DNA of 64,000 nucleotides from Rhodothermales bacterium. Lineage in GTDB: Bacteria; Bacteroidota; Rhodothermia; Rhodothermales; Bin80. The DNA lies in contig CATQHT010000002.1 of NCBI GenBank assembly GCA_958296045.1, forward strand, positions 496,001 through 560,000, read 5' to 3'. The position numbers were made by a program, and so were the translations under genes. Within the stretch, counting starts at the first letter, position 1. Every line of letters begins with the position of its first letter. This document shows, in pieces, positions 7,772 through 63,987 of this stretch. The notes under the pieces were generated by a model. That model was not told the origin of the DNA and ran no database searches. It saw nothing but the letters and a program-made list of their open reading frames with translations.

Positions 7772-7773
7772 GA

Positions 7774-9204
7774 ATGTTCACCCACTACCACCTGGACTCC
7801 CGTTTCTTCGACGAGCTATTCCGCGAGAACGGCATTCCGCGTGCAGTTTGTCGCTCCCTCAGCGAGGCGCTCGTCCGCATCCACGCGGACGAGCTTGTTC
7901 GGATCCAGGACAGTGTGCACCGACATTTCGTGCACGAGGGCATCACCTTCACGACTCTCGGCAAAAAGGAGGTGTCCGAACAAATAATCCCCATCGATTG
8001 CGTGCCGCGCATTCTCACGGCCGCGGAGTGGGCGCACATCGAGGCGGGAATCAAGCAGCGTCTGCGCGCCATAAACCTCTTCCTGCGCGACATCTACCAC
8101 GAGGGACATTCGCTGCGCGACGGCGTGGTGCCGCTCGATCTGGTGCTGGGCTGTCCACAATATCGGGTCGAGATGCGGGGAGTCCGGGTACCGCACGACA
8201 TTTATGTAGCAATCGGAGGCACCGATGTGGTGCGCACTGACGAGGGCTTCATGGTGCTCGAAGACAACATGCGCGTCCCGTCTGGCGTCTCCTACATGCT
8301 GGCATGCCGCGCGGCAATCAAGAGAGTGCTTCCCACCCTGTACCGTGAACACCGGGTGCACGAGGTGTCCTCCTACCCCGAACGCCTGTACTCGACCCTC
8401 GTTTCTTTGAGTTCGGCAGTGGGAACGCCGCGCGTGGCAGTGCTGACGCCGGGCCGGTACAACTCGGCGTACTACGAGCACGCCTTTCTCGCTGGCGAGA
8501 TGGGAGTTGACCTCGTAGAGGGGCGAGACCTGGTGGTGCACAACGCCGCCGTCTACGCTCGCACCGCCTCGGGACTACGCCGCATCGATGTCATCTACCG
8601 CCGGAAAGACGACGATTTCACCGACCCCGTCATTTTCCGCGAGGATTCGATGCTGGGGGCGGCCGGTCTCTTCCACGCCTACCGTGCTGGCAACGTGGTG
8701 ATGGCCAATGCTCCCGGCACGGGGGTGGCGGACGACAAGGCGGTGTATGCCTTCATTCCCGACATCATCCGCTACTTCTTAGGCGAAGAGCCCATATTAG
8801 CAAACGTGGACACTCACCTGTGTCGCACGCCCGATGGACTTGCCTTTACGCTGGACAACCTGCAGGACCTTGTAGTCAAGGAGGTGGGAGGCTCGGGCGG
8901 CTACGGGATGCTGGTGGGCCCCCAGTCCACTGCACCAGAGCGGGAAGCCTATGCGGCCCGTTTGCGCGCGGACCCGGATAACTTCATTTCCCAGCCCGTT
9001 CTTCCCCTTTCGCGGGCCGCATGCTTCGTGGACGGTAGCCTCCAGCCCCGTCATGTCGATGTGCGCCCCTTCACCTTGTGCGGTGGCAGTGGCCAGGAAG
9101 TGGTACCAGGCGGGCTCTGCCGTGTGGCCCTGCAAAAGGGGAGCCTCGTGGTGAACTCCAGCCAGGGCGGGGGATGCAAGGACCTCTGGGTCCTGAAGGC
9201 CTGA
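7774..9204 (+). CDS. Circularly permuted type 2 ATP-grasp protein
   Basis: Starts MFTHYHLDSRFFDELF; LFLRDIYHEG, GTDVVRTDEGFMVLEDNMRVPSGVSYML, LVVKEVGGSGGYGMLVGP typical of the family. The ORF track merges it with the upstream amt relic (6625..9204). Confidence 0.93.
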   Translation: MFTHYHLDSRFFDELFRENGIPRAVCRSLSEALVRIHADELVRIQDSVHRHFVHEGITFTTLGKKEVSEQIIPIDCVPRILTAAEWAHIEAGIKQRLRAINLFLRDIYHEGHSLRDGVVPLDLVLGCPQYRVEMRGVRVPHDIYVAIGGTDVVRTDEGFMVLEDNMRVPSGVSYMLACRAAIKRVLPTLYREHRVHEVSSYPERLYSTLVSLSSAVGTPRVAVLTPGRYNSAYYEHAFLAGEMGVDLVEGRDLVVHNAAVYARTASGLRRIDVIYRRKDDDFTDPVIFREDSMLGAAGLFHAYRAGNVVMANAPGTGVADDKAVYAFIPDIIRYFLGEEPILANVDTHLCRTPDGLAFTLDNLQDLVVKEVGGSGGYGMLVGPQSTAPEREAYAARLRADPDNFISQPVLPLSRAACFVDGSLQPRHVDVRPFTLCGGSGQEVVPGGLCRVALQKGSLVVNSSQGGGCKDLWVLKA

Positions 9205-33895: not shown

Positions 33896-34568
33896 GCGCA
33901 TTTAGTGGGTCGTCTTCCGCGGCCTCCTTAGTCTCCCGGTCAAAGTTCTTCTGCAGAAAGGAGGGCCAGCGCTGGTAGATTGCCTCGCCCACCGCGGTTA
34001 ATTGCCACTACTCCATGAGATCGGCATTCTTCGCGTCCTCCCGCTGATGGAGCTGCTTCTCCCCGTTATCTTCTATATCTTGCCTCCACACAGCAATTCT
34101 AGATTTAGATACCCGTTAAGGGTTTGGTCGTATCGTCATCCGCCTCCGCTGGATCCTTCCGGGGCCAGAGCCTCAACGATCTGTATGCTAAACAGGATCA
34201 CCGGGTCTTCCAGATACCTGGAAGACCGTCGTATCTCTCGGGAGGATGGATGGCGCCCAAATGTGGCTTCTCATTACTCGTTCCAGCCCTTTCAACAGCT
34301 TCCTCTGCAACTCGCGTGCGTGTATCTCGCAAAATGATCCGTTCCTCCACCGAAAACCTCAAATTCAGAATTGCTGGCCTCCACATAGGAACAAACTGAT
34401 TTGTCCGTAGATGTTGTACTTTGGGTTGTCATTGGCATAGGGAAATCGCCTACCTGCTTTACGACTTGTTCAGGAGACTCAATGCGACCACCGGCTACCA
34501 ATACAGGTTTTGAGGGCGGGATTCGGCCATCTCGCGTCACATCGATTTCCAGAGTGCGCCGAGCTCCG

Positions 34569-36587
34569 ATGTTCGCTGAGGAGCTTCTTGTATTCCTGCT
34601 CAACAAGCGGAGTGGCCATTTGCTACACATGCCGGACCGGACCCTTCATTACGCACTGGCAGGAGCAGTTCTGATGGATCTGGCACTCGAAGAACGCATC
34701 GATACCGACCTAGAGCGCCTGTGGGTGGTAGATTCGACACCGGTGGGCGAGGACCTCCTCGACCTGGCGCTCGCATTGATCGCCAAAGACGCTGGCAGCC
34801 ACGACGCGGCCCACTGGATCGAGTGTCTCGCCGTGACGGAGATTGCTGGGCAGATTCGGGAAGCGGCGATCACACGATTGATCGAGCGAGGCATCATGGA
34901 GCGAGATGCGGGCGGCTTTCTGTCTGTGACCCGTCTGGTGAGGAGAGCCCAACGATACCCCACAGTTGATGGTCTTGCGGGCCGAGAGGTCGAAGCGCGC
35001 ATCATGCGGATCCTCTTTACCGACGATATCCCTGACCCCCGTGATGCCATGCTCATCGCCCTTGTCGATGCCTGTGGCATTTTCGAGCGCGTGCTAACCC
35101 TGGAAGAGCGGGCAGAGGTTGCGGACCGCATTGATCTGTTGCGACGTCTCGATCTGATCGGTCGGACGGTAGGCGAGACGATTCGCTGTTTGGGGGCTCT
35201 CGAGCCCGAGGGTGCGCCCGAGTCTGGGAGCATCATCTTAGACGGCGAAGAGTGCGCCCAAGTGCTTGCCAGGCAGCCGATGGTCCCCGGCGGTCTGCCG
35301 ATTCTCGGGCACGGGCTCAGCCTCGCGACCGATCCGATGGCGTTTCTCACCAAGCAGTACCTTACCCACGGTCCCGTCTTCCGTGTCCGTGTGCCCGGCA
35401 ACAACATCACGGTTCTTGCTGGTCCAGAGGCAAACATCTTCATGCAGCGCCAAGGCCGCCTGTACCTGCGCTCGTACAAGGCCATGGGGCCCTTGGTGCG
35501 GCATTTGGGCGCCCACAGGGCGATACTCAACATGGATGGTGACGAGCATTTCCGGTTGCGTAAAGTCATGAACAAGAGCTTTTCGCCCAAAGTCATCTTT
35601 ACGCACCTCGACACAACGTGCGATGTTGCCGCCGAGGAGCTCGCCACCTGGCCCGAGGGGAAGCCTCTGGCGGTGCTTCCGGCGTTGCGGCGCATCTTCA
35701 TTGAGCAGACCTCACAGGTATGCACCGGAACGTCCGCGCTCGAATGGGTCGATGATCTCACGTATTACATTGAAACGATCATTACGTGCTTTGCTCGGCG
35801 TTCCCCCCAATGGAAGCTGCGGTCGCGGCGCATGCGGCGCGCGCGTGCTAGCGCGACTCGGCTGGCGGAGGTTGTGCTGAATGCTCACGACCCAGAGCTT
35901 CGTGCAGGCACGACGCCCGACATGATCGACGACTTGATCGAGCTGCACCGCGCCGACCCCCAGTTCTTGCCGCAGAACGAGTTGCGTGCGACCACCCTAG
36001 CCCCCTTCTTAGCAGGTCTCCACACCACCACTGCTTCGGCTGCCTTCATGCTCTACCAGGTGCTCAGACACCCCGAGATTTACGCCGCCATGCAGCGCGA
36101 AGCGGACGCGCTGTTTGCAGGCGAGGGCCTGACACCGGCCAAATTGCGTAAGATGGACGTAACGCACCGAGCCCTGATGGAGACCCTGCGCCTGTATCCG
36201 GTCGGGGGGGTGTTGCTGAGGGATGTCGTCAACACCTTCGAGCTTGCAGGCCACACGATTCCGTTTGGCGAGCTAGTCATGGTCCCCGTTACCGTACCCC
36301 ACTTCTGCGAGGAGTATTTTCCCGATCCCCTGCGGTTCGATATCGACCGCTACCTTCCCGAAAGGAACGAGCATCGGCAAAAAGGAGTGTATGCGCCGTT
36401 CGGTATCGGGACGCATCGTTGCATCGGTGCCCGCTTTACGGACGTGCAGGTCGCGCTGACCTGCGCGACGCTGCTGCGCCGTGCTGACCTTGCGCTCCAT
36501 CCACCGAACTTCAAGCTGAAGCCCAAGTACGCTCCGGTCCTCACGCCAGGCAAAGCGTTCAAGATTACGGTTGCGCCCAGGCACTGA
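34569..36587 (+). CDS. GPP34 (GOLPH3-like) domain - cytochrome P450 fusion
   Basis: N-term LHYALAGAVLMDLALEERIDTDLERLWVVDSTPVGEDLLDLALALIA...LIERGIMERDAGGF...RRAQRYPTVDGLAGREVEARIMRILFTDDIPDPRDAMLIALVDACGIF (GPP34). C-term P450: ETLRLYP (ExxR), FGIGTHRCIG (heme Cys), I-helix AGLHTTT. One uninterrupted frame. Confidence 0.88.
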   Translation: MFAEELLVFLLNKRSGHLLHMPDRTLHYALAGAVLMDLALEERIDTDLERLWVVDSTPVGEDLLDLALALIAKDAGSHDAAHWIECLAVTEIAGQIREAAITRLIERGIMERDAGGFLSVTRLVRRAQRYPTVDGLAGREVEARIMRILFTDDIPDPRDAMLIALVDACGIFERVLTLEERAEVADRIDLLRRLDLIGRTVGETIRCLGALEPEGAPESGSIILDGEECAQVLARQPMVPGGLPILGHGLSLATDPMAFLTKQYLTHGPVFRVRVPGNNITVLAGPEANIFMQRQGRLYLRSYKAMGPLVRHLGAHRAILNMDGDEHFRLRKVMNKSFSPKVIFTHLDTTCDVAAEELATWPEGKPLAVLPALRRIFIEQTSQVCTGTSALEWVDDLTYYIETIITCFARRSPQWKLRSRRMRRARASATRLAEVVLNAHDPELRAGTTPDMIDDLIELHRADPQFLPQNELRATTLAPFLAGLHTTTASAAFMLYQVLRHPEIYAAMQREADALFAGEGLTPAKLRKMDVTHRALMETLRLYPVGGVLLRDVVNTFELAGHTIPFGELVMVPVTVPHFCEEYFPDPLRFDIDRYLPERNEHRQKGVYAPFGIGTHRCIGARFTDVQVALTCATLLRRADLALHPPNFKLKPKYAPVLTPGKAFKITVAPRH

Positions 36588-36686: not shown

Positions 36687-37889
36687 CTACCGCCGTTTGA
36701 GCTTCCCTGCGGCGCGGCGCACCCGATAGCCCCAGGCGGATAACAGTGAGAACATTCTTGCGGGGCTTAGCAACGGGCGGGGACTAGGAAGCAGCTTACC
36801 GGCGTCCAGATCCTTGATCGCGATAGCGAGTCGCTTCAGTAGCAAATCCATCCCCTCCGCCATGCGGCGGTCAGAAATGTCCACCACACCGCATCCTACG
36901 ATTAAGGGCATCAGCACCGCTAGTATGTTGCTGCGATAAGCGCGCCAGCACTCCTCGAAAGAGATATCGGCAGCGCCCTCGGCGCAGATGATACGATGGT
37001 ATTCCTCGAGTGCCGGCCGTTCAATCTCACGGCGAATCTCGGACGTCACGCTGTTGATGAAGAAGAAGGCGATATCGTACAGTCCGCAGTGCATCGATGC
37101 CATCTGCCAATCGATCACCGTCACCTCGCTGGAGCTGGGCTCTGCGAAGAACATATTGGTTGTGCGATAGTCTCCGTGTACGAGTGTGCGGGGCATCGTG
37201 GCGGCTAGGTCCGCGAAATGGTCGGCGAGTCTGGGGCCATAGGCTTCTGCGAGCCAGCTCATGTCGCCGCGCAATATGTCCCCGAATCTGTCCAACGCAT
37301 GGCCCAACATGGCCAGATAGTAGAGCTGGAGCAGCACACGACGCCATAGGCTCGCGAATTTGGGAATCCGCGCCAGCACCAACGATCCTTCGCGATCCCA
37401 GAACGCCGCGTGCAACCGCGCCGCTGCCCGGATGGCCGTCATCACCTGATCGGGATTGGCTCCGTCCCTGAACTGGACCGACTCCATGCCAGCCAGATCC
37501 GCAAGCAAGAGAACGAAGCTGTGGTCTTTCGGGTTGAAGTCCCCGTACAGGAGGGCCGGGGTGGCGACTGGGGCGTTCACTGCAATGCGCAGGTAGAACT
37601 CACACTCGACCTTATAGACGGACATCAGCCAGCTCGTCCTTCTGACGCTGCGTTTTGCTGTGGGAAGCTTCACGATCACTGTCTCAGGACCCGGTCGGCC
37701 ACCGCCTTTGCGATAGGCTATCTCGGCGCGGAAGGTGTCGCTGACCGCACCTTGGTCAATGGCATCCATGTCCTCGAAGACTAGCTTTTCCACTGGTGCG
37801 CAGTCGGCCAGTCCTCCTGCGACCAGAGCCCTGCGCATCCAAGAGGCCGTGATGTCGTCCCGCGAGGCGGGCAATGGTGGTTTTATCAT
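36687..37889 (-). CDS. Ecdysteroid-kinase-like / aminoglycoside phosphotransferase-fold small-molecule kinase
   Basis: APH-fold motifs LVHGDYRTTNMFFAEPSSSEVTVIDWQMASMHCGLYDIAFFF; VIVKLPT lysine strand; layout like EcKinase/DUF1679 proteins. ATGA overlap with the upstream MFS gene. Confidence 0.83.
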   Translation of the reverse strand: MIKPPLPASRDDITASWMRRALVAGGLADCAPVEKLVFEDMDAIDQGAVSDTFRAEIAYRKGGGRPGPETVIVKLPTAKRSVRRTSWLMSVYKVECEFYLRIAVNAPVATPALLYGDFNPKDHSFVLLLADLAGMESVQFRDGANPDQVMTAIRAAARLHAAFWDREGSLVLARIPKFASLWRRVLLQLYYLAMLGHALDRFGDILRGDMSWLAEAYGPRLADHFADLAATMPRTLVHGDYRTTNMFFAEPSSSEVTVIDWQMASMHCGLYDIAFFFINSVTSEIRREIERPALEEYHRIICAEGAADISFEECWRAYRSNILAVLMPLIVGCGVVDISDRRMAEGMDLLLKRLAIAIKDLDAGKLLPSPRPLLSPARMFSLLSAWGYRVRRAAGKLKRR

Positions 37890-39118
37890 TGGGCCGCCTC
37901 CGAGGTTGGTTCCACTGGTCTCGCAAACGCGAATGCTAGTATTGCGATGAGCGCGCACCCTGCGATGCCGATGGCGGTGGTGGCCAGCGTGCCACCGTGG
38001 AATGCGTCCAGCCCCGCCCCGGCCAAGCCCCCCACCACGTTGGGCAGGGAGCCCACGATGCCAGACGCGATGGCACGCGAGCCGGGAAAATGCGCCAAAA
38101 AGCATGCGATAGCGTTCCCGGCGATAATGCCCAGCGTGCCCGAAACCACCGTCGTTAATGCGATGACGACGGGAAGGGAGGGTGGCATGAGCATAACATG
38201 CGCCAGTAGCAGCAGAGCGGCAAGGAACTGGGCGCCGCATGCCATGGGGACGAGCTGCTCGGCGTGGTGCTTAACGATGAGGCGAAGATTTAGTATGGCG
38301 CCACCCATGTACGCCACCGTGCTTAAGGCCAGCAGCAGGCCGAAGGGTCTCGGACCGACGCCGAACCACTCCATGTAGACGAATGTTGCGTCGGTAAAGT
38401 AGACGAAGCTACAGCCCGCCGCGAAGCTCAAACCGATGGCATATGCCATTGCGCGAGGCTTGCCGAGCACCTCCTGGTAACCGCGGATCGCCTGGCGAAC
38501 GATCGCAGGATGCGGCTCTGTGGACCCAGAGACTGTCTCGGGAAGCTGGATCCATAGGAGCCATCCGAGGAGGCCGCAGCACACTAGCAAAATCACGAAC
38601 GAGGACTGCCACACGAACACGCCCACTAGTAGCGCGCCGACGATGGGGGTTAGGATGTATCCGATGGCCTGGGCAATCTGGATCAGGCTAAGCGAACGCG
38701 CTGTGTTTTTGGTGGTGCCCAAGTCCGCGATTACGGCGGCGATGTTGACCGCGGCCATGCCCAGGACAGCGCCTTGGACGAATCGAAACACTACAAACAG
38801 GTCCGCGGTAGCGGAGAATAGGATACCGATCGTCGAAGCCGCGAAAAGCCCCAGCCCCAGCTGGGTCGATGATCTTCGGCCGAACCGGTCGGAGATGGGG
38901 GCACCCACGATCTGCCCGATGCCAAGCCCGACAAGGAACATGCTCACGGAAAGCTCGATCCGCTGAATGTCGACCCCGAACCACTCGCCAATGTCAGGCA
39001 GGGCTGGCATGTAGAGGTGCATCGCCAGTGCCGGCATAATGGCCAACGCCGCGAGGGCCAATATGGGGATCTCCCCAGACCGTCGATCGTTAGAGGCTGC
39101 GATCTCGACTTGGGTCAT
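37886..39118 (-). CDS. MFS transporter, Bcr/CflA-like
   Basis: LHLYMPALPDIGEWFGVDIQRIELSVSMFLVGLGIGQIVGAPISDRFGRR (MFS motif A, Bcr/CflA N-terminus), 12 hydrophobic segments. Confidence 0.92.
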   Translation of the reverse strand: MTQVEIAASNDRRSGEIPILALAALAIMPALAMHLYMPALPDIGEWFGVDIQRIELSVSMFLVGLGIGQIVGAPISDRFGRRSSTQLGLGLFAASTIGILFSATADLFVVFRFVQGAVLGMAAVNIAAVIADLGTTKNTARSLSLIQIAQAIGYILTPIVGALLVGVFVWQSSFVILLVCCGLLGWLLWIQLPETVSGSTEPHPAIVRQAIRGYQEVLGKPRAMAYAIGLSFAAGCSFVYFTDATFVYMEWFGVGPRPFGLLLALSTVAYMGGAILNLRLIVKHHAEQLVPMACGAQFLAALLLLAHVMLMPPSLPVVIALTTVVSGTLGIIAGNAIACFLAHFPGSRAIASGIVGSLPNVVGGLAGAGLDAFHGGTLATTAIGIAGCALIAILAFAFARPVEPTSEAAQ

Positions 39119-40248: not shown

Positions 40249-42126
40249 TCACCATGGGTATGCAGGGAACCTGGAGTGCTCCAAGTACAGCACGGCTAGA
40301 GGTGGGAGCGTGACCAGAATGCTGTGCTCGTGGTCGCCGGCGGGCACTGGATCGCTCGTCCACGCCGCAGGCAGTGACATGCCGCTGCCGCCGTAGACGC
40401 CGGCATCGCTGTTTAAGCGCACAGCATAGGTGCCTGGCTGCGGCACGCCAAGGCGCCAGGCGTGGCGGGGCAGGGGCGCGAAATTGAGCACAATAGCTAG
40501 CGACTGCTCAGCGCTCGCGCGCTGGTAGGCCAACAGGTTGTGATCCGCATGCTCCGCGAGCCACAGCCATCCAGAGCTCTCGTCATGCCACAGGGCGGGG
40601 GAGCGCCTGTACAAGGTGTTCAGATCCGTAATCCACCGCATCAGGCTGGCGCGCAGCGGGTCCTGTACCAACTCCCAATCCAGAGCGCGGTCGTGATTCC
40701 ATTCGGAAGTCTGACCGAACTCGCTGCCCATAAACAGCATGTTCTTGCCCGGATGGCCCCACTGGTGGCCGTAAAGTATGCGCAGGCTGGCAGCCTTCTG
40801 CCAAGCGTCTCCTGGCATCTTGTTCCAGAGCGAACCCTTACCATGCACTACCTCGTCATGCGAAAGCGGCAACAGATAATGCTCCGTAAAGGTGTACATG
40901 AATGAAAACGTAAGCCGCCCGTGATGGTACCTGCGATATGCCGGGTCCTGCTGCAGGTACGCCAGGATATCATGCATCCACCCCATGTTCCATTTGTACA
41001 GGAATCCCAGCCCGTCATCATAGGTGGGGGCGGTCACGCGAGGGAATGCCGTGGACTCCTCGGCCAGCGTGAAGGCGGTGGGGAATCTCCGGTAGATGGC
41101 TTCATTGGCTTTCTTGAGAAAATGTATCGCCTCCAGGTTCGTGTTGCCTCCGAACTCGTTGGGAGTCCAATCGGAGCGCGAATAGTCGCGGTACAGCATG
41201 GAAGCGACCGCGTCAACGCGCAGTGCGTCGACGTGGTACTTGTCGAGCCAGAAAAGCGCGTTGGAAACAAGAAAGTTGCGTACTTGGGGCTTCGAATAGT
41301 CAAAGATGCATGTGCCCCAATCCGGGTGCGTGCGCATCTTCTCGTCTTCATACTCATAGAGCGCCGACCCATCAAACCATACCAGCCCCTGAGGATCTAC
41401 TGCAAAGTGGGCTGGCACCCAGTCCAGGATAACCCCGATCCCGCGCTGGTGCAGCGTATCAATCAGATACATCAGGTCGGACGGCGAGCCATGCCGAAAC
41501 GTCGGAGCATAATAGCCGACGACCTGGTACCCCCAGGAGCCGTAGTATGGGTGTTCGGCCACCGGCAGCAGCTCCACATGCGTGAACCCGAGCGCGCTCA
41601 CATGGTCGGCCAGTGGCACGGCAATGGCGCGGTAAGAGAGTGATTCGCTGGGTGCGCCGTGCCTCCACGAGCCCAGATGCACCTCATAGACCGATATCGG
41701 TCCGTGTAGGGTTGCAGGACCCTGCCGACGCTGCATCCAATCCTCGTCGCCCCACTGGTACGTGAGCGGGTCAATGATTGCCGCGAGCCCATGCGTGTTG
41801 CTGCCCTGGGGAGGCTCAAGGGCAAACGCGTAGGGGTCAGCCTTGTCGGTCGCGTAGCCGCCCCTCCAGATACGAAACTTGTACCGGTGCCCGGGCTCGG
41901 CTCCATGGGCAAAGCCTTCCCACAGACCGGCGCCGGTGTGCTGCAGGACGCACTTGTCCACCTGCCAGCCATTGAAGTCTCCGATAACCGAGACGGCATC
42001 CGCATTGGGAGCCCAGACAGCCATCCAGGCGCCACCGGGAGCCAGATGCGCGCCAAGGCGCTCATAGCTGTCCTCAAACTCGCCCTGATCCCAGTAGTAG
42101 CGATCCTCTGTACTCAGCCACCCCAT
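40249..42126 (-). CDS. glgB: 1,4-alpha-glucan branching enzyme
   Basis: [71 protein letters not shown]. Confidence 0.98.
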
Positions 42127-42149
42127 ACGCGCTCTGCTATGTTACGTTA

Positions 42150-44069
42150 TCAGACCCGATAGATGGCTGCGGGCATCACATGCGGGTTCAGCCGGATATG
42201 CTGCCAAACGCCCTGCCAGGTAAAGCTGCCCCCGCCCAAGAGGTCTTCCACCGTGAAGGGCTCATGGCCAGACAGACCCAGATAGTCCAGCGGCAGGACT
42301 ACATCTGCTGCCTGCTCATGGAATGGATCCAGGTTCACAAAGCAGACGATGCGGCTGTCGCCACTTACCTTGCAGTAGCCGAGGATGTGCTTATTGCGTA
42401 CGTCGAAAAACCGGATGGAACGAAGCTGCTGCAGCGCAGGGTGGGCCCGGCGGAGCTGATTGATTCTTTGAAAAAGTGGCTGCAAGGATTCCTCGTCGTG
42501 CCAGTTCCAGTGCCGGACCTCATACTTCTCATTGTTCGCATATTCCTCCCGCTCTGGATGCTGCCGGCAGTCCACATGTTCGAACGGGGGCCCGTAGACG
42601 CCGTAGGTCGCAGATAGCGTGGCTGCTAGGATGAACCGGATCACGTGGGCAGGGCGCCCGCCCTGGACCAAAAACTCGTGCAGGATGTCTGGGGTGTTAG
42701 GCCAGAAATTCGGCCGAAAGTACTCCGCCACATCCGAATGCGCAAGCTCCGTCATGTACGACGTAAGCTCCTCCTTCGTGTTCCGCCACGTGAAATAAGT
42801 GTAGGAGTTGTTAAAGCCCAGTTTGGCCAACGTATACATCGTTCGCGGCTGGGTGAAGGCTTCGGCCAGAAATATGAGGTCGGGATCCTTGGCGCGCAGC
42901 TCCCCCAGGCACCATTCCCAGAAGGTAAACGCCTTCGTATGGGGGTTATCTACGCGAAAAATCCTGACGCCGCGCTCGATCCAGAACTCAAAGGCCCGTT
43001 TTAGCTCTATCCACAGCGAGGGCGCTTCTTCGCTGGTAAAGTCGAGAGGATAGACATCCTGGTACTTTTTAGGCGGGTTTTCCGCATATCGGATAGTGCC
43101 GTCGGCGCGGCGCTGAAACCATTCGGGATGCTTGCGAACGTACGGGTGGTCAGGCGAGCATTGAAATGCTATATCCAGTGCCACATGCAGGCCCAGCGAC
43201 TTTGCGCGCCCCACAAATCGGTCAAAGGCCGCCAGCCCTCCGAGTTCTGGATGCACGGCGGTATGGCCGCCTTCCCGGCTGCCGATAGCCCAGGGGCTGC
43301 CGGGCTCGCCTGGCGCGGCAGCAGGGCTATTGTCTTTACCTTTGCGAAAGGTCGTCCCAATGGGATGCACCGGCGGGAGGTAGACCACGTCGAACCCCAT
43401 GGCCCGGATACGGTCCAGCCGGTCGGCCGCGTCGTCTAGCGTGCCGTGGCGGCCAGGCACCGCAGATGCGGAGCGTGGGAAGAATTCGTACCAGGCTGCG
43501 AAGCCAGCAAGCGGCGGATCTACTTCGAGCACGTACCACCTGGATGTGGTGGCGCCGCGCTTACGGTCGTGGCGGCGCATCAGCTGTGACAGCTCCTCGT
43601 CGAGCGCGGCCGATGCTTCGCAGCGTTCCATGGCTTCTGCGAAGCGCTCCAGCGCCTGGGGGTGAGCGATGCGTCTTGCTGCTTCGCGGACAAGCGCGGC
43701 GCCCGTTAGGAGCTCCACTGTGACCTCCTGAGCGTCGGCATGGTGCTCGACCCTGCGCCGGAACTCGTCCTGCCACGTGGCAAACTCGTCAACCCAGGCG
43801 CTAATTCTGAACCGATAACGGCCAGGTGTCGGGCAAGCGAAGGAGCCGACATATTCGTCGTTCCATCGCAGCTTCAGGCGCTGGGTTGTGGGCTCACCGG
43901 CTGGCGGTCTGACCTCGATCAGGACCGCGAGCTTGTTGTGACCATCGGCAATCACTCCAGCCATCACTGAGACTGTTTCTCCAGCAGCGCGGCGGGCTGG
44001 CCATTGTCCGCCGTCGACCGAGGGTGCAACGTCGGTGATGATGGTTCGGTGATGGCGTGCGACCTGCAT
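42150..44069 (-). CDS. glgE: Alpha-1,4-glucan:maltose-1-phosphate maltosyltransferase
   Basis: GlgE N-terminal domain (YRFRISAWVDEFATWQDEFRRRVE), FDVVYLPPVHPIGTTFRKGKDN, FRVDNPHTKAFTFWEW, LIFLAEAFTQPRTMYTLAKLGFNNSYTYFTWRN. Confidence 0.97.
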   Translation of the reverse strand: MQVARHHRTIITDVAPSVDGGQWPARRAAGETVSVMAGVIADGHNKLAVLIEVRPPAGEPTTQRLKLRWNDEYVGSFACPTPGRYRFRISAWVDEFATWQDEFRRRVEHHADAQEVTVELLTGAALVREAARRIAHPQALERFAEAMERCEASAALDEELSQLMRRHDRKRGATTSRWYVLEVDPPLAGFAAWYEFFPRSASAVPGRHGTLDDAADRLDRIRAMGFDVVYLPPVHPIGTTFRKGKDNSPAAAPGEPGSPWAIGSREGGHTAVHPELGGLAAFDRFVGRAKSLGLHVALDIAFQCSPDHPYVRKHPEWFQRRADGTIRYAENPPKKYQDVYPLDFTSEEAPSLWIELKRAFEFWIERGVRIFRVDNPHTKAFTFWEWCLGELRAKDPDLIFLAEAFTQPRTMYTLAKLGFNNSYTYFTWRNTKEELTSYMTELAHSDVAEYFRPNFWPNTPDILHEFLVQGGRPAHVIRFILAATLSATYGVYGPPFEHVDCRQHPEREEYANNEKYEVRHWNWHDEESLQPLFQRINQLRRAHPALQQLRSIRFFDVRNKHILGYCKVSGDSRIVCFVNLDPFHEQAADVVLPLDYLGLSGHEPFTVEDLLGGGSFTWQGVWQHIRLNPHVMPAAIYRV

Positions 44070-44150
44070 TCGATCCTCGATTCCTTATTCTTCGACGCTT
44101 ACGGATGCAGCATTGCTGCCAGAGGGTGAAGGTACGGATTTGGGCATCGT

Positions 44151-46232
44151 ATGAACCTTGCGAAAAAGAACGAGAAGGGCAACGTTGTGAAGAGCGGCCA
44201 GCCTATGCCTCTGGGCGCACGCTGGGATGGCCAGGGGGTCAACTTTGCATTGTACAGTCGCCATGCACGGCGTGTTACGCTCTGTCTGTTTAACAGTCCA
44301 TCTAGCACGGCGCCAGCGCGCGTCGTTCCAATGAAGGATCGTCACGGGCCGGTCTGGCATGCCTATGTGGCGGGCCTGGGGCCCGGGCAGCTGTACGGGT
44401 ACCGAGTAGATGGGCCCTTCGCACCCAGGTCCGGCCATCGTTACAATCCGAACAAGGTGCTTCTTGATCCTTATGCACGGGCCATCGGCCGCATGCCGAG
44501 ATGGGATGCCAGCCTGTATGGTCAAGACAGGGACGACTTGTCGATGTCAACTCTAGACAGTGCTCCGCACGCGCCGCTGGGGGTGGTTACCGATGCGGTG
44601 CCACTGCACACGGAGCGCCCCCATATCCCCTGGGAGGACACCATCATTTACGAGACCCATGTAAAGGGGATTTCCCGGTGCCACCCCGAGGTGCCGCCAG
44701 AAGTGCGCGGGACGTTTTTGGGCCTTATCAGCTCGCCGGTGCTTGGGCATCTCAAGCGGCTGGGCGTCACTGCAGTGGAGCTTCTGCCCGTGCATGCGGC
44801 AGTGCAGGATGAGCGCCTGATCAAACAGCGGCTGGCGCAATACTGGGGGTACAACACCCTGTCGTTTTTTGCGCTGGACCCGCGGCTGGCCGCCGGTGAC
44901 GGCGTGCGGGCTATCGCGGAATTCCAGGAGATGGTGCGCAGCCTGCATGCGGAAGGCATTGAGGTGATATTAGATGTGGTGTACAACCACACTGGAGAGG
45001 GGGAACACCTGGGCCCGACGCTGTCATTCAGGGGTCTGGATAACTACGGGTACTACAAGCAGCGCCCCGACAATAGCCGTTTCGTGATGGACTATACCGG
45101 GTGCGGAAACACTTTGGATACCGGTAATGCGGCGGTGAGGCAGCTCATTATGGACAGCCTGCGCTACTGGGTTCAGGTGATGGGGGTGGACGGGTTTCGT
45201 TTTGATTTGGCTTCCGTCCTTGCCAGGGAGCGCTACGAAGTCAATATGCAGGCCTCTATGCTGCACATGATCCATCAGGATCCGGTGTTAAGGAATACAA
45301 AGCTTATTGCCGAGCCTTGGGATGCGGGACGCGACGGGTATCAGTTGGGGGCATTCCCGTGGCGATGGAGCGAGTGGAATGACCGGTATCGCGACACTCT
45401 TCGCCGCTTTTGGCGAGGCGATCCGGGCATGGCTGGCGAATGTGCCACGCGTCTGGCAGGTTCGAGCGATCGCTTTGCGCGCAGGCACCGGCGGCCGTGC
45501 GCCTCGGTCAACTTCGTTACTAGCCACGACGGGTTCACACTGGAGGATCTGGTGAGCTATTCCCGCAAGTACAATGAAGCCAATAAGGAAGGCAACCGTG
45601 ACGGCAGCAGCCAGAACTACAGCACAAACTGCGGAGTCGAGGGGAGCACCCAGGAGGTTGCGGTGCTTGCGCGGCGTGATCGTCTAAAGCGAAGCATGTT
45701 TGCCAGCCTTCTGGTATCGCAGGGGGTACCGATGATTCTGGGCGGCGACGAGCTTTCTAGGACGCAGCGGGGCAACAACAACCCTTACTGCCAGGACAAT
45801 GTCATCAGCTGGTATGACTGGACGCTGGATGCACGTCAGGAGCGTTTCTTGGACTTTGCCAGGAAGGTGGTGGCCTTGCGCCGGGCACATCCGAATCTAC
45901 GTCGGACTCATTATCTGACCGGACAACCCAACGAAGAAGGCAGGCGCGACGTCACTTGGTGGCATCCTGCTGGCCGCGAAATGAAACCGGGTGACTGGTC
46001 GCGCGCCCGCTGTTTCGCGATGCAGATTGACGCAGGGCCTGTAGACGCCACTGCCCTACTGTTGGTGTTCAACGCCGCCTCAGAAGAGGCGAACGTTGTG
46101 TTGCCCGCTGGGCGCTGGCGCGTAGTGCTGCACGAGGGATCAGACGAAGTCTTTGACGCTGACGATGCGTTGCGGATGCTGCCGTCGGCGTTTGCAGCGC
46201 TGGAAGCCGTGCGGGCTGCGCCGTCCCGGTGA
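44151..46232 (+). CDS. glgX: Glycogen debranching enzyme (isoamylase type)
   Basis: [103 protein letters not shown]. Confidence 0.97.
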
Positions 46233-46405
46233 GGGCTACCAGCATATCACTGGTGGAGAAAGGATTCGGCCAGCTCAATGCCATCACATGGCGTAGCAGG
46301 CCGGTGCCGCACCCTGTATGGCTTGAGCGATGTTAAGGGCCCAGAGCGGATGTGCGTGATTACCATTTAGGTCAGGAATCGGGCACCAAGTGGGTGGGTC
46401 GGCCC

Positions 46406-47908
46406 TCAGCTGCCGCGCCGATGGGTCCGGGTGAGGCTGCGCAGGTGGCTGGTTACCTCGCCCACCATCGCGGCCATATCGTTATGGCGTAAGCGCCAGG
46501 CCCAGTTGCCAAACGCGGTGCCAGGCGTGTTCATGCGCGCTTCGCCTCCTAAGCCGAGCACATCCTGGACAGGAAGGATCACCACAGCGGCGTCGGATGC
46601 CATGAGCACATGCGCGGACTGCCAGTGCCCTTCTGTTGCCGTAAGGCCAAGGTAGCGCTGGGCAAAAGCCCGGACGTCAGCAGGAGCCCGGGCCACCCAG
46701 CCACACCACGTATCGTTATCGTGCGTACCGGTAAAGGCAACTAGGTTGGGGCCGTAGTTGTGCGGCAGGTACGGGTTCGCTTCGTCGCTGTCGAAGGCAA
46801 ACTGCAACACGGCCATCCCTGCGAACCCGAACTGATCTTTGAGGGCCAAGACATCCTCAGTTATCACCCCTAGGTCCTCGGCGATGACCGGCAAGGGGCC
46901 GAACGCATCGGTCAGCCGGTTAAACAGCGCTGGACCCGGTCCGACAACCCATCGGCCGTTTACCGCCGTCGGCTCCGAGACTGGGATTTCCCAGTACCCG
47001 GCGAACCCGCGAAAATGATCCAAGCGCACCACATCGAACAGGTCAAGGGCCCGTCGGAACCGGCTGCGCCACCAGGCGAAGCCGCGGTGTTGCATCGTGT
47101 CCCAGCGGTATAAGGGGTTGCCCCAGCGCTGGCCGGTATCACTGAAAAAGTCAGGAGGCACCCCACCGACGGCCAACGGGTCGCCCTGGTCATCTAGCTG
47201 AAACAGCTCCTGCGCGGCCCAGACATCTGCGCTGTCGTGAGACACGTAGATGGGCAGGTCTCCGATGATCTGGATTCCGCGCTCGCGACAGAACGCTCGC
47301 AGGCGTTGCCACTGCAGCTGAAAGACGAACTGCCCAAAGCGCGCGTGCGCCCAATGGTGGGAGAGCCGCTCTTGGGCATAGGTGACTGCGCGTGCCACAT
47401 CCTTACACAGGAGCTCGGGCCATCGGGTCCATGGCTTGCCAAAGTGTTCCCCAAGTGCCACAAATGCAGCATAGTGATCCAGCCAGTAGGCTTCCTTCTG
47501 ACAGAAGCGCGCAAAACCCGATGACGCCCGCTGTGCAGCGAATCGCTTATATGCCTTGGTGAACAGAGCAGACTTGGAGACGACGACGCGGGCATAATCC
47601 ACAGCGGCACTTCCGGCCACATGGTGCCTTTCTAGGTCGGCTGCGCTCAAGAATCCGTCGGATACCAGATCCTGGGGGCTCACCAATAGTGGTTCCCCGG
47701 CGAAGCAGGAGGTCCCGGCATACGGCGAGTTGCCCAAACCGACGGGTCCTACCGGCAGTACCTGCCACCAGCACTGCTCTGCTTTTGCCAGGGCGCGGAC
47801 AAACTGGCGGGCCCCCGGCCCCATGTCGCCAATCCCAAAACGCGAGGGGAGGGAAGTGATGTGCAGCAGCAGTCCGCTGCTACGTGCGAAATTCATAGAT
47901 GAGGGCAA
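46406..47908 (-). CDS. malQ: 4-alpha-glucanotransferase
   Basis: RSSGLLLHITSLPSRFGIGDMG, WWQVLPVGPVGLGNSPY, RLDHFRGFAGYWEIPV, VIAEDLGVITEDV, FTGTHDNDT. Confidence 0.97.
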   Translation of the reverse strand: MPSSMNFARSSGLLLHITSLPSRFGIGDMGPGARQFVRALAKAEQCWWQVLPVGPVGLGNSPYAGTSCFAGEPLLVSPQDLVSDGFLSAADLERHHVAGSAAVDYARVVVSKSALFTKAYKRFAAQRASSGFARFCQKEAYWLDHYAAFVALGEHFGKPWTRWPELLCKDVARAVTYAQERLSHHWAHARFGQFVFQLQWQRLRAFCRERGIQIIGDLPIYVSHDSADVWAAQELFQLDDQGDPLAVGGVPPDFFSDTGQRWGNPLYRWDTMQHRGFAWWRSRFRRALDLFDVVRLDHFRGFAGYWEIPVSEPTAVNGRWVVGPGPALFNRLTDAFGPLPVIAEDLGVITEDVLALKDQFGFAGMAVLQFAFDSDEANPYLPHNYGPNLVAFTGTHDNDTWCGWVARAPADVRAFAQRYLGLTATEGHWQSAHVLMASDAAVVILPVQDVLGLGGEARMNTPGTAFGNWAWRLRHNDMAAMVGEVTSHLRSLTRTHRRGS

Positions 47909-50294: not shown

Positions 50295-52973
50295 CTAGGC
50301 CTCGCGCTTCTCCCTCGAGCGGCGAAACCACATCGCCGCCTTCACAAAGTCTCGCGGCACACCCCTTCCTAGACGATAGGCCGCAGACAGCCTTTCCTGG
50401 CTGTCTACATGCCCCTGCTCGGCCGCCAGCTCGAACCATTTCGCCGCCTCCACGTCGTCTTGAGCCACCCCACGCCCCTCAGCATATAGCGTACCGAGCT
50501 TGAACTGGCTCTCTGCATAGGCCCGCTTCGCAGCCAAACGAAACCATTGAATCGCTGCTTCCTGGTCCTGAGGCACTCCGATTCCGGCCTCATAATAGCA
50601 GCCAAGCTTGTATTGACTTTTCCGGTATCCCTTATCGGCCGACAACCTGTACCACGAAATCGCCTGCGTCTCGTCCTGGGGCACGCCCCTGCCAGCCTCA
50701 TAGTAACAGCCAAGCTTGTACTGACTCTTCCTGTTCCCCTGGTTGGCCGACAACCTGAACCAAGAAAACGCCTGAGTGTCATCTTGGGGCACGCCCCTGC
50801 CGGCTTCATAACAGCAGCCAAGCCTGCATTGACTTTTCCGGTATCCCTTATCGGCCGACAATCTGTACCACGAAATCGCCTGCGTCTCGTCCTGGGGCAC
50901 GCCCCTGCCAGCCTCATAGTAACAGCCAAGCTTGTACTGACTCTTCCTGTTCCCCTGGTTGGCCGACAACCTGAACCAAGAAAACGCCTGAGCGTCATCC
51001 TGGGGCACGCCTCTGCCAGCTTCATAACAGCAGCCGAGCTTGTGCTGACCCTTCGCGTACCCGTGGTTTGCCGCCCGTTTGTACCACGCTGCCGCCTGAG
51101 CGTCATCCTGCGTCACACCATTGCCCGTTGCGTAAATGATGCCCAGTTTGAGCTGGCCTCTCGGATAGTCCAGCTCCGCCGCCATACGGTACCACCTGTG
51201 AGCCTCTGCCAGATCTTGGGCTACGCCCTGGCCGTGCTCATACATCAGACCCAGATTGACCTGGCTGGCGCTATAGCTTTGGTCTGCCGCCCGGCGATAC
51301 CATTTTACGGCCTCTTCTTCATCTTTGGCTACCCCGCGGCCACTCGCATACATGTTGCCCAGGTTGCACTGGCCTCTCGGATAGCCCTGGTCTGCCGCCC
51401 GGCGATACCACTTTACGGCCTCTTTTTCATCTTTAGCCACCCCGTGGCCACTCGCATACATGTTGCCAATATTGCATTGGCTTGACAAATATCCCTGCTT
51501 CGCCGCCAGCATATACCACTCTGCTGCCTCAACTTCGTCTTTTTCGACCCCCCGGCCATTAAGAAGCATCTTTGCCAGATTGGATTGGCCTCGCGCGTAT
51601 CCCTGCCGCGCGGAGCGGCGGTACCACTTGACCGCCTTTCCCTCGTTCTTGGTCACCCCCTCGCCCAAGGCGTACAAGTTGCCCAGATTGCACTGAGCCG
51701 GCGCGTATCCACGCTTGGCCGACTGCTTGTACAGCTCCGCTGCCCGAGTTTTGTCTTGAGCTACGCCCCTACCATCCGCGTACATCCTGCCAAGCTTGCA
51801 CTGGCCACGGGCGTACCCCTTAGAAGCCGCCAGACGGTACCACTTCACGGCCTTGGCCTCGTCCCGAGCTACCCCTTTGCCCCTAGCATACATGGTACCC
51901 AGATTGCACTGGCCCGGCGCATAGCGCCGCTCAGCCGAGAGGCGATACCAGTAAAAGGCCTCGTCCTTATCCTTCGGAACGCCTTTGCCATGTTCATATA
52001 GATGGCCAAGGGCACACTGAGCGCGCGGGTACCCCTTGTTAGCTGCCTCCCGAAACCACCTGACTGCCTCATCCTGATTTTTTTCCACGCCTTTGCCTGC
52101 GGAATACATGTTCGCCAGATTGCACTGAGCAGGCAAAAACCCCTGCTCCGCCGATCGGCGATACCATTTAACCGCCTCCTGAGCGTCCTTGCGAACGCCT
52201 CTGCCTAATGCATACATGTACGCCAAGTTGAACTGGCCCCATGGATTCTCCTGGTCGGCAGCCCGCCGGTACCACTTCACGGCCTTGTCCCAATCCCTGG
52301 GCACGCCCCAGCCTCTGTCATAAATCCTGCCCAGTTGCCCCTGACTCTTTGCACATCCCTGCTGGGCAGCTAATCGTATCCACTTGGTTCCTTCAACCGC
52401 GTCTTTGGGCACCTCTCGGCCAAACAGGTATGTCTCACCCAGTCGGGTCTGACTGCGCAGATGGCCCTGCTGAGCAGCCAGCCGCCACCACTTTATTGCC
52501 TCACTTCGGTCTACGAGCGCGTCCCGGTCGGACACCAACAGTTGCCCGTAGTGATACTGCGCTTTAGCGTAGCCATTTTCAGCTGACCGCCTAAACCACG
52601 CGGCTGCTTCGACCTCGTCGCTTCGAACGCCTCTGCCGACTTCATAACAACGGCCCAGCCTGTACTGGGCGGGTGCGTACTGCTGCCGTGCCGCCCGGTG
52701 GTACCACCTTAATGCCTCCACGGTGTCTCTAGCCACGCCACTGCCCGACTCATACATGGAACCCAGCCTGTACTGGGCGGGCGCGTGACCCTGTATTGCC
52801 GACTTCTTGTACCAGCGGGCGGCTTCCTTACTATTCAGCGGAACGCCGTTGCCGCCCTCGTACTTCAGGCCGGTATCGTATTGCCGAAAGGCATCTGCCA
52901 GCTGATCCGAAGCCGCTCGGCGCTGGTTAGCTTCGAGATCCGCTAGATGATTCTTGTCGTGACTTAGCGACAT
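50295..52973 (-). CDS. SEL1-like repeat protein (many 36-aa repeats)
   Basis: Repeated A(xx)WYRxAAxQGYxxxQxxLGxMYxxGxGVxxDxxEA units from MSLSHDKNHLADLE onward. Confidence 0.95.
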   Translation of the reverse strand: MSLSHDKNHLADLEANQRRAASDQLADAFRQYDTGLKYEGGNGVPLNSKEAARWYKKSAIQGHAPAQYRLGSMYESGSGVARDTVEALRWYHRAARQQYAPAQYRLGRCYEVGRGVRSDEVEAAAWFRRSAENGYAKAQYHYGQLLVSDRDALVDRSEAIKWWRLAAQQGHLRSQTRLGETYLFGREVPKDAVEGTKWIRLAAQQGCAKSQGQLGRIYDRGWGVPRDWDKAVKWYRRAADQENPWGQFNLAYMYALGRGVRKDAQEAVKWYRRSAEQGFLPAQCNLANMYSAGKGVEKNQDEAVRWFREAANKGYPRAQCALGHLYEHGKGVPKDKDEAFYWYRLSAERRYAPGQCNLGTMYARGKGVARDEAKAVKWYRLAASKGYARGQCKLGRMYADGRGVAQDKTRAAELYKQSAKRGYAPAQCNLGNLYALGEGVTKNEGKAVKWYRRSARQGYARGQSNLAKMLLNGRGVEKDEVEAAEWYMLAAKQGYLSSQCNIGNMYASGHGVAKDEKEAVKWYRRAADQGYPRGQCNLGNMYASGRGVAKDEEEAVKWYRRAADQSYSASQVNLGLMYEHGQGVAQDLAEAHRWYRMAAELDYPRGQLKLGIIYATGNGVTQDDAQAAAWYKRAANHGYAKGQHKLGCCYEAGRGVPQDDAQAFSWFRLSANQGNRKSQYKLGCYYEAGRGVPQDETQAISWYRLSADKGYRKSQCRLGCCYEAGRGVPQDDTQAFSWFRLSANQGNRKSQYKLGCYYEAGRGVPQDETQAISWYRLSADKGYRKSQYKLGCYYEAGIGVPQDQEAAIQWFRLAAKRAYAESQFKLGTLYAEGRGVAQDDVEAAKWFELAAEQGHVDSQERLSAAYRLGRGVPRDFVKAAMWFRRSREKREA
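50611..51042 (-). repeat. Near-identical tandem duplication of a 216-bp (two SEL1 repeats) unit
   Basis: 50611-50826 and 50827-51042 read almost identically; peptides AFSWFRLSANQGNRKSQYKLGCYYEAGRGVPQDETQAISWYRLSADKGYRKSQ occur twice. Confidence 0.9.
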
Positions 52974-53133
52974 GCTGTATCTGACTTGGAATTGTCTGTA
53001 CGTGTGCCTTATAAATATAACCGACAAAGTCGCCCGGAACAGAGTCGTCGACTGCGAAACGGCATCACCGAGCTTTGTCGCCTGCTGGCAGTGCCTTATG
53101 GCTGCACGCGAAACGTGTCCAAGTAGCGAAACA

Positions 53134-54630
53134 TCACGTGCCCGAGCCCGCGATGCTGGCACGCAGCCCAGCATAAAGCGCCTCCAACAACGTATCCGCA
53201 GCCTTTGTAGGAAGATCCACCACGCGCGGATAACGGAGGACTCCAGCACCCGCCGTGTCAGGCGTCACCGTACACAGCCCCAATCGCCGCTGAAACCATG
53301 TGCCATTGACACGAAACGTCTGCAGACGCTCAAAAGGTACAACCCAGATCTTCTGCTTAAAGACGCCGTGTCGGATATACACGGTGTCCGCACCCACCAC
53401 GTATCCGTGATTGCGGTACTGAAGCCATGCCATAACACCCAAGAGTGGCAGAGTGCTGAGTCCCCACAGTGCTGCACTCCCCAGCCAGAGCCCCAACGGC
53501 AATAGCACCACGATAAGTGCCCGAACGTACCGAAGAAACGTGCGCCTGATGGCCAAAGGTGAGACATGCTCATAGGACTCCGGTAGTTCAAAAGGCCGGA
53601 TGCGCGGTCCTACCTGCGCAATCTCGTCAAGGCGCGCCAGGGGTATCGCCATGTTGCCGCCGCGGCGTGACACGTCATATCCGATAGTCTGCAGCTCGAT
53701 CCTGAACCACCCGAAGGCACGCATCAGGGGGTTGGACCGTACGATAAGCGCTTGGATGCGCTTCAGCGGGATGGTGGCCTCCTGTAACGTGAGAAGTCCG
53801 TGGCTGCGCACGAGCTTGTCCTCCATGCGCCGCAATCGGTACCTGTAAAAGCGTACCACCGTCGCGACTATCCCGCTGATCCACGCCAGCACAATGGCTA
53901 GCACAACGGCGAAAACAGCAATGCCCCACATTTTGGGAACATCCATCACCAGGTTTGTGCCCCCGTTACTGAGCAACCAATCCATCACTGCCTGTTCTAC
54001 GGTGCTGTTGAACTGTTGCGCGTACGCTACTGCGGAAAAGATGATGGCGATATACACCAGCGAAAACCGAAAGGCCCCGGCCAGGAATACGCGTCGCAGC
54101 GGCATATCAACCAGCAGCTGTCCAGTCGCGGGCTCAGTGTCCGAAAAAGCCACGTCCGGCTGTATGACCTGAGACCCCTTGCGGACCAAATCACGTATAT
54201 CCAGTGCAACGCTCTGGCTGGTGTATTCCAGCACACCCTCTGCCTCTGCACTGCCAGCCGTCATAATCTTTACACTTGACAAACCCGCCAGACGGGGGAG
54301 CAGGCTGCGCTCAATAGCTACGTTCTGGATGCGCTCTAGCGGAATGTTGCGCTTGCGGCGCCGAAAAACGCCGCTGCGGATAATGATTTCGCGCGGTGTG
54401 ATGCGATAACTGAATTTCAGAAAGTGCGCAATGATCAACGGTACCGCCACAAATGCATACGCGGCGGACAATCCCAACATGATGAAGTTCTGAAACCGCT
54501 GTTGCCCATCCGGGACTGCAGCCGTGGAGGACAGTATGGCTATCGCAAGCGCGGGGATGCTCTTAGCGAAGCGTAGCAGCAACGTCAGCGGATGCAGGCG
54601 CCGCAAGACGCCCTCAGACGGCATACTCAT
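53134..54630 (-). CDS. Bacterial PH-domain membrane protein (YdbT-like)
   Basis: SYRITPREIIIRSGVFRRRKRNIPLERIQNVAIERSLLPRLAGLSSVKIMTAGS; later PH-like strands RYRLRRMEDKLVRSHGLLTLQEATIPLKRIQALIV with TM segments. Confidence 0.88.
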   Translation of the reverse strand: MSMPSEGVLRRLHPLTLLLRFAKSIPALAIAILSSTAAVPDGQQRFQNFIMLGLSAAYAFVAVPLIIAHFLKFSYRITPREIIIRSGVFRRRKRNIPLERIQNVAIERSLLPRLAGLSSVKIMTAGSAEAEGVLEYTSQSVALDIRDLVRKGSQVIQPDVAFSDTEPATGQLLVDMPLRRVFLAGAFRFSLVYIAIIFSAVAYAQQFNSTVEQAVMDWLLSNGGTNLVMDVPKMWGIAVFAVVLAIVLAWISGIVATVVRFYRYRLRRMEDKLVRSHGLLTLQEATIPLKRIQALIVRSNPLMRAFGWFRIELQTIGYDVSRRGGNMAIPLARLDEIAQVGPRIRPFELPESYEHVSPLAIRRTFLRYVRALIVVLLPLGLWLGSAALWGLSTLPLLGVMAWLQYRNHGYVVGADTVYIRHGVFKQKIWVVPFERLQTFRVNGTWFQRRLGLCTVTPDTAGAGVLRYPRVVDLPTKAADTLLEALYAGLRASIAGSGT

Positions 54631-61986: not shown

Positions 61987-63987
61987 CTATGGTGGCTGGC
62001 GCTCCACAAGGTCGTAAATCGCTCCGAGTTCTTCGTAGGCTATGGCGCGCATCTGCAGACTTGCGTACCCACGCCACATGATTTCGTGCCCCGGCGGCGG
62101 GTCGTGCTTTCGGTTCATGTAGCCGCCCATCATCGCCATCAACAAAATTCCCGAGGCGAGGTCCTTAAGTTCGGGAAGGTCGTAATTGCGGGCATAGACC
62201 CGCAACATATACATCTCCGCGTCCGTGAAAATCACTTCCGCGTCCATGCTGGCAGTTACACGCCCCAACAGCGTCATGAGCATGAGCCGCCAGGACGTGA
62301 CGATATACAGCGTTATTACCCGGTGCAGGTTCTCTGCCTGCTGCATACGCAGCTTTTCGACGCGGCAACCCGTCTTGAGTACCCGAAAGGTGTCCTCCAC
62401 GCGCCAGCGCAGGGTGTAGTATTCCAGTATCTGCTCTGCCTCCTGTAGTGAGGTAACCTCCACGGTGGTTAGCAGAAACCACTCAATCCGATCTGCACCT
62501 TTGGGCGGTGCTATCTCACGAACGTGGACCGCGGAGACCTTCACGGGATCTTCGGCAGACCCGCCTGTTGCTGGCAGCCTCACTTGGCGAAAACGCACCT
62601 CCATGCGTGCATTGCGCTTCGGACGGCCCTTGTGCGTGATCCGACCAGACTTCGCCCGAAGACTCAGACGCTCTACCAAGAGCTCCAGCACACCGGCAGC
62701 AGGTCCACGGCGCATGGCTTTAAACAGGCGATCATGGTTCTTACCCAGATTCCGATCGTGTTTGGCCCGAATCAGCACATCGGTCCGCTTCAAAGTGCGC
62801 TGCGCCGCAAAGATCTCGAATGCATCCGCTTCCCGGTCCATCACGCTAAGCACGCGCGTCTTGCGCGGCAGCGTCTGTGCAGCCTCATCTATGTCGCGAA
62901 GCCCGTCAATCCATTGATGCGTCGTGGTTTGCCCTTCCTCTTTTCTGTACGAACACCGTAATACTCCCAAGGGCAATCCCTCGTCGTTCAACGCCAGGGT
63001 CGCGTGCAGATGTACGCCGCGCGCCTGTGCCTTGGTCTGGTTACTACCGATTACTTCCAATCCGTCGCACTGCGGACGTGTGCTGTAACTAATGTCTGTA
63101 CCATCCTGCACGCACAGCACCGTTTTCTGGGTGCGCATCCGCTCAATGGTCCGCTGCCGGTGCGGCGCCAGTATCTTCGCAGGTGTGATGCCGAACCTAT
63201 CGGCCTTCTCGATGAATCGCCAATATCCCCTTACAGCAGCTAAGTCTCGGTTAGGAACCGTGGTTACGGGCTTTCCCATCGTCTTTGCTACTAGTGCCGC
63301 GCTCTTTACCAGACGGGCGGTGCGCCGAATATGGCCCAACGCTGCACCGCCGAATTCCTGTTCCGCCCAAGAGTCGCTCGCCAGCCCAGCGCCCACCTCC
63401 AGCCGGGGTCGCAATTCCACATGCGGTACGCCCAGACGATCGCGCCACGCAGGATCCAGTTCATAGGCGAATACCTTCTTCCGTGAACGCTTTCCCACGC
63501 CGCTCGGTGCATGCCGACCGCGCCCCTGGGTGAGACCTAAGTATTGGAAGCCTGCTGCCTTGAAACACGTACCCTCGTAACGTGGACACACGAAGGTCTC
63601 TACCACGTAAGGTACATACTTATACCGGGCCATGAAGTCGGAGGACAATCGCCGAAACACGCGACCCAGCACGAAGCTCGCCAGATTCTTGCACCGAACA
63701 CTTGGACGAATCAGAAAACGACTCAGGTTCACTACGCGCTTAAGATGGCCGCTGCGCTGCTCATGACTCCAGGCCATCCACCGGTCCCGCGCCTTGAGAT
63801 AAAGCGCAGCGGCAGAGAAACCGACCGCCCCCAGATAACCGTGGGCGCTCTTAATTAGGTAGCGCATTTGTGCTCCCGCAAAGGTGGTCACCCCCCGCGG
63901 ATGCTCTTCGTCCATGAGCGTATTCCAGATGGCGCGATCTTGTGCGCTGTCTACTCGGACGATCTCGAAATCCTCGATCTCGCGCAC
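61987..63987 (-). CDS. IS4 family (Tn5-like) transposase with N-terminal DruA/DUF4338-like domain
   Basis: N-term RFLIRPSVRCKNLASFVLGRVFRRLSSDFMARYKYVPYVVETFVCPRYEGTCFKAAGFQYLGLTQGRGR (DruA-like); C-term VQDGTDISY, VLSVMDREADAFEIF, and YREK motif YYTLRWRVEDTFRVLK. Confidence 0.9.
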   Translation of the reverse strand: MREIEDFEIVRVDSAQDRAIWNTLMDEEHPRGVTTFAGAQMRYLIKSAHGYLGAVGFSAAALYLKARDRWMAWSHEQRSGHLKRVVNLSRFLIRPSVRCKNLASFVLGRVFRRLSSDFMARYKYVPYVVETFVCPRYEGTCFKAAGFQYLGLTQGRGRHAPSGVGKRSRKKVFAYELDPAWRDRLGVPHVELRPRLEVGAGLASDSWAEQEFGGAALGHIRRTARLVKSAALVAKTMGKPVTTVPNRDLAAVRGYWRFIEKADRFGITPAKILAPHRQRTIERMRTQKTVLCVQDGTDISYSTRPQCDGLEVIGSNQTKAQARGVHLHATLALNDEGLPLGVLRCSYRKEEGQTTTHQWIDGLRDIDEAAQTLPRKTRVLSVMDREADAFEIFAAQRTLKRTDVLIRAKHDRNLGKNHDRLFKAMRRGPAAGVLELLVERLSLRAKSGRITHKGRPKRNARMEVRFRQVRLPATGGSAEDPVKVSAVHVREIAPPKGADRIEWFLLTTVEVTSLQEAEQILEYYTLRWRVEDTFRVLKTGCRVEKLRMQQAENLHRVITLYIVTSWRLMLMTLLGRVTASMDAEVIFTDAEMYMLRVYARNYDLPELKDLASGILLMAMMGGYMNRKHDPPPGHEIMWRGYASLQMRAIAYEELGAIYDLVERQPP

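Follow-up and report, generated by a model that had tools for sequence, protein, structure and literature searches.

A GOLPH3-like GPP34 domain fused to a cytochrome P450 with sterol-pathway relatives in a Rhodothermales genome

In a 64,000-nucleotide stretch of a Rhodothermales genome (the whole of which is called the window here), one reading frame seems to join a GPP34 (GOLPH3-like) domain to a cytochrome P450, which raises the questions whether both belong to one genuine protein and what a GPP34 domain might contribute to an oxygenase. Bacterial GPP34 proteins have so far received little functional characterisation.

The region 34569-36587 (+) is a single open frame of 672 codons, and the strand opposite to it has many stops in the same register. 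A sequence-only reading had assigned the gene to this span; its open frame was confirmed, while its start was not, since the frame is already open from 34401 and an ATG at 34482 with a preceding AGGAG appears to be the better start. The locus has the following features:

34472..34476, + strand: possible ribosome-binding site AGGAG, as read from the sequence
34482..36587, + strand: GPP34-P450 gene, likely the full gene, about 701 amino acids with an Arg-rich N-terminal tail, starting at the ATG behind AGGAG
34575..35186, + strand: GPP34 (GOLPH3-like) domain (Pfam PF05719 and GOLPH3/Vps74 fold match)
35187..35279, + strand: flexible linker between the Pfam domains, with low pLDDT
35280..36563, + strand: cytochrome P450 domain (Pfam PF00067; best PDB match CYP51)
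36012..36029, + strand: I-helix oxygen-activation motif AGLHTT
36180..36191, + strand: ExxR motif (ETLR)
36399..36428, + strand: heme-cysteine motif FGIGTHRCIG
36687..38240, - strand: convergent neighbour, ecdysteroid-kinase-like/APH-family protein (PF02958, 57 bits), functional link to the fusion unproven

The fusion gene is solitary, with one divergent and one convergent neighbour. Inspection of the adjoining frames and their Pfam domains revealed no operon with lipid genes, and promoter and terminator scans found nothing. Elsewhere, the window contains an alpha-glucan cluster with GlgE, GlgB-like, debranching-type and 4-alpha-glucanotransferase genes (40249-47908), a protein combining Spondin_N, GH5 cellulase, CBM6/35 and T9SS sorting domains (3128-5764, +), a protein with about 23 Sel1 repeats (50295-53249, -), a Tn5-type transposase frame with a DruA-like match at the N-terminus (61987-63987, -), and a DUF5686 domain. 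Also, a frame at 6625-9204 (+) consists of a short ammonium transporter piece followed by a complete circularly permuted ATP-grasp, possibly due to a join or frameshift. The T9SS sorting domain and DUF5686 point to a lineage of Bacteroidota type; a 16S search of the genome gave no match.

Both parts of the fusion protein score far above their Pfam cut-offs. Numbered from 34569, residues 3-206 match GPP34 with 123.9 bits (cut-off 29.1) and residues 238-665 match p450 with 182.2 bits (cut-off 22.8), and the P450 hallmarks, i.e. the heme Cys, the ExxR motif and the I-helix Thr, are all present. The claim that one frame encodes GPP34 and a full P450 was thereby borne out. Structure prediction had been suggested as a further check, and AlphaFold2 gave a GOLPH3/Vps74 fold next to a P450 fold. 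The model of the whole fusion has a mean pLDDT of 91.5, with values below 50 only in the linker (residues 212-225), and its top structural matches are P450s with CYP51 first. The GPP34 part modelled alone (pLDDT 88.8) matched GOLPH3 and Vps74 and no other structure below an E-value of 0.001 (best E 4e-8, TM about 0.66).

The joining of two separate genes through a sequencing or assembly error would be the simplest alternative, and a search for the same architecture in other genomes had been named as a way to decide. The genome of the window (4.78 Mb, 4 contigs) has a second GPP34-P450 fusion on a different contig; the two copies share 60% identity in GPP34 and 49% in the P450. In addition, 23 further full-length fusions were found in 18 other genomes from two families, in the same order, with some genomes carrying two, and one more on contig L031 of a named MAG. 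The chance of an artificial join is negligible in view of the second copy and of the complete fusions that recur across many independent genomes. Apart from the two fusions, no P450 was found in the genome of the window, and the sole P450 found in genome G002 is likewise a fusion.

The search of 245 genomes of the class gave no additional fusions; it yielded stand-alone GPP34 in two f14 genomes, fragments in G040, which lie at contig ends and were left out of the fusion counts, and sub-threshold noise. Weak GPP34 matches in G006, G024 and G045 were rejected, as all were below the cut-off; the G006 frame resembles PriA and the G024 frame an ABC permease, hence neither is GPP34. Among 396 genomes drawn from the phylum, GPP34 occurring outside the two families was stand-alone, except in G275, where it is joined to an FdhF/YdeP-like oxidoreductase. 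Such a fusion with a molybdopterin oxidoreductase of the FdhF/YdeP family, at L153:1-2865 (-), is a second case of GPP34 tied to a redox enzyme. The scan of named genomes was queried with the window protein alone and returned close relatives only, with the fused L031 and the GPP34-only L032 as the relevant ones of three loci, so that the spread of the fusion outside the class is poorly sampled. L032 carries a tandem pair of GPP34 frames with an overlap of a few bases (197-1601, +) in a MAG labelled Chromatiaceae. In open-access literature pairing GPP34 with P450 or Actinobacteria, no description of the fusion was found. The GPP34-P450 architecture is genuine and conserved, and apparently undescribed.

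Phylogenetic trees were obtained for each domain. The fused P450s form one clade (support 100/100, and 95/95 after adding further outgroups), as do the fused GPP34 domains (99/98). Since the fused sequences are monophyletic in each domain tree, GPP34 and P450 were probably joined only once. Both trees set off the same clade B of 17 sequences; for clade A (9 sequences including the window protein), the P450 tree does not firmly establish a single group. The clade A members have I helices of the usual type with some variation (AGLHTT, VGLDTT, SGLHTT, AGMHTT). In clade B (for instance L036:8548-10680), the I-helix Thr and one further residue are gone in all 17 members and an invariant Tyr and Gly are shared instead (e.g. 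ASIY-LGSG), while the ExxR Glu and Arg and the heme Cys are retained. This replacement by conserved residues, as opposed to random loss, suggests that clade B has an altered chemistry rather than being decayed.

For the substrate, the gene neighbourhoods of the relatives are informative. The nearest stand-alone P450 found is WP_227398350 from a Planktothrix agardhii plasmid (33% identity, 243 bits), which groups with the fused P450 clade with a support of 100/100. Its gene cluster comprises a squalene epoxidase, an OSC-type cyclase (VSDCTAE), a CYP51 (AGQHTS), a 3b-HSD-like SDR and a KshA_C Rieske oxygenase. A KshA_C gene over the cut-off was present in 11 genomes, in 8 of which the only copy lies at most about 2 kb upstream of a clade B fusion on the same strand, and in four genomes a clade B fusion has a sterol methyltransferase gene close by, at a distance of 250-410 bp for three of the fusions and 6.3 kb for the fourth; such neighbour counts, being taken across related genomes, do not represent independent events. 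Clade B fusions also often adjoin RND and membrane-fusion genes or an FAD oxidase. Beside one fusion, a short Rieske-related frame (L053:9699-10373, -) may be a decayed Rieske gene; no KshA_C match was found in its genome, G003.

The neighbourhoods of clade A vary and include sulfotransferases (L034, L057), a chalcone-synthase-like gene (L031) and an acyltransferase (L037). At L057, the sulfotransferase is located about 4 bp ahead of the fusion, the end of which overlaps the open frame of a gene of the geranylgeranyl-reductase family, to which a bacterial sterol C-24 reductase belongs (PMC12004948). An OSC was present in seven fusion-bearing genomes, with a separate bona fide CYP51 in the OSC cluster where the contig let it be seen, which makes the fused P450 a further enzyme in these genomes. 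At L087:8816-12307 (-), and also at L066, L068, L069, L070 and L071, squalene epoxidase and oxidosqualene cyclase are encoded in one open frame of about 1160-1200 amino acids (Pfam-checked in L087 only), a fused two-step sterol enzyme that adjoins CYP51, ERG24-like, Rieske and SDR genes. Rhodothermia with sterol clusters have been reported from sponges (PMC9531527).

The guess of a lipid substrate for the window protein thus holds up, given the sister P450 in a sterol cluster, the KshA-type Rieske and sterol methyltransferase genes beside clade B, and best structural matches to sterol P450s (CYP51s, and for clade B also CYP46A1). Which lipid the window copy itself would use is uncertain, because SHC/OSC, sterol methyltransferase and KshA_C genes were all searched for in its genome and not found; the nearest relatives lie in sterol clusters, but signs that this genome itself makes or modifies sterols were not found. 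As a cyclase is missing, the substrate is probably either imported or made from squalene or a carotenoid. Three SQS_PSY-type (squalene/phytoene-synthase) genes, two of them adjacent, are present, and together with the missing cyclase they favour a P450 acting on carotenoids, retinoids or a terpene instead of sterol-like rings, with GPP34 still as a membrane dock. Pointing the same way, the match to CYP120 (2ve3, 1.2e-34) is about as good as the best PDB match, CYP51 (1e-35), and the nearest NCBIfam models, all far below cut-off, are the albaflavenone and pentalenene (terpene) P450s. We nevertheless consider such a specificity unlikely, since both the closest stand-alone P450 and, by its gene neighbourhoods, the second subfamily are of sterol type.

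The role of the GPP34 domain was assessed by alignment with Vps74, the PI4P-contact residues of which we take to be W88, R97, K178 and R181. The equivalents of W88, R97 and K178 are not kept in the fused GPP34 domains, that of the window protein included, and are mostly absent from stand-alone bacterial GPP34 too, and R181 is kept in clade A only. Binding of phosphoinositides, which the initial reading mentioned for eukaryotic GPP34 domains, was consequently not supported here, with three of the four contacts lost. The wider proposal of that reading, that GPP34 may dock the P450 at a membrane, is still plausible; as the domain occupies the same place in every full-length fusion, it would most likely serve for docking, either to a partner protein or to the membrane in some other way.

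Eukaryotic GOLPH3 acts as an adaptor with its clients and COPI. GPP34 could correspondingly be a protein-protein adaptor that recruits a redox partner or the next enzyme and does not bind membranes; the missing PI4P residues in fused and mostly in stand-alone bacterial domains would fit this, and the fusion to an FdhF/YdeP-like oxidoreductase in G275 hints at a general enzyme-attached module. However, the two subfamilies share no partner gene, and the window copy is solitary, so we regard a pure adaptor as improbable. Still further from what we expect is that GPP34 survives only as a passive remnant or assists folding, and docks nothing: the lost eukaryotic functional residues and the flexible linker speak for it, but GPP34 has kept its position in every full-length fusion, and the two copies in the window's genome differ no more in this domain than in the P450, which makes such a reading very improbable.

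Judging from its relatives, we propose that the window protein belongs to a P450 lineage that tailors sterols or triterpenoids, acts as a heme-thiolate monooxygenase and carries an N-terminal GPP34 docking module, and give this an even chance of being right. The P450 would oxidise a bulky membrane-soluble isoprenoid lipid (a sterol, triterpenoid or similar), while GPP34 would keep the protein attached to the face of the membrane or to a partner enzyme. Thereby, GPP34 would play in a soluble bacterial P450 a role similar to that of the N-terminal membrane helix in microsomal P450s. With the fusion, bacterial sterol metabolism would gain an uncharacterised oxygenase; the pathway is relevant to sponge sterols and sterane biomarkers. 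Because GPP34 is covalently tied to an enzyme with relatives among sterol genes, its role becomes testable with and without the domain. A more general idea, possible but doubtful in our view, is that bacterial GPP34 is a docking module for lipid and redox enzymes at large, and that the fusion uses the fold without phosphoinositides to present enzymes to membrane isoprenoid lipids. If so, clade B would represent a P450 with altered, Thr-free chemistry in a bacterial sterol-modification operon.

Among known systems, CYP51 is the best match in sequence and fold, and a His precedes the I-helix Thr of the fused P450, as it does in AGQHTS. That the fused P450 is CYP51 itself was rejected, as it scores 127 bits to CYP51 structures, where the stand-alone CYP51 from related genomes reaches 336, falls into a separate clade and is devoid of the CYP51 B' signature, presumably of the YxxFxxPxFGxxVxYD type (aligned region SYKAMGPLVRHLGAHRAILNMDG). 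The Methylococcus capsulatus CYP51-ferredoxin, which is among the best structural matches, likewise combines a bacterial P450 of sterol type with an additional domain, but its partner is a redox domain, whereas that of the window protein is a non-redox GPP34 at the N-terminus. The P450 of Planktothrix agardhii, unlike the fusions, has no GPP34 domain. With GOLPH3 and Vps74, the fused GPP34 shares the Pfam family and the predicted fold, but it is attached to an enzyme and its PI4P pocket is not conserved. Streptomyces SCO4440, a separate gene linked to peptidoglycan phenotypes (PMC12402492), also encodes a bacterial GPP34 domain, but without an attached P450.
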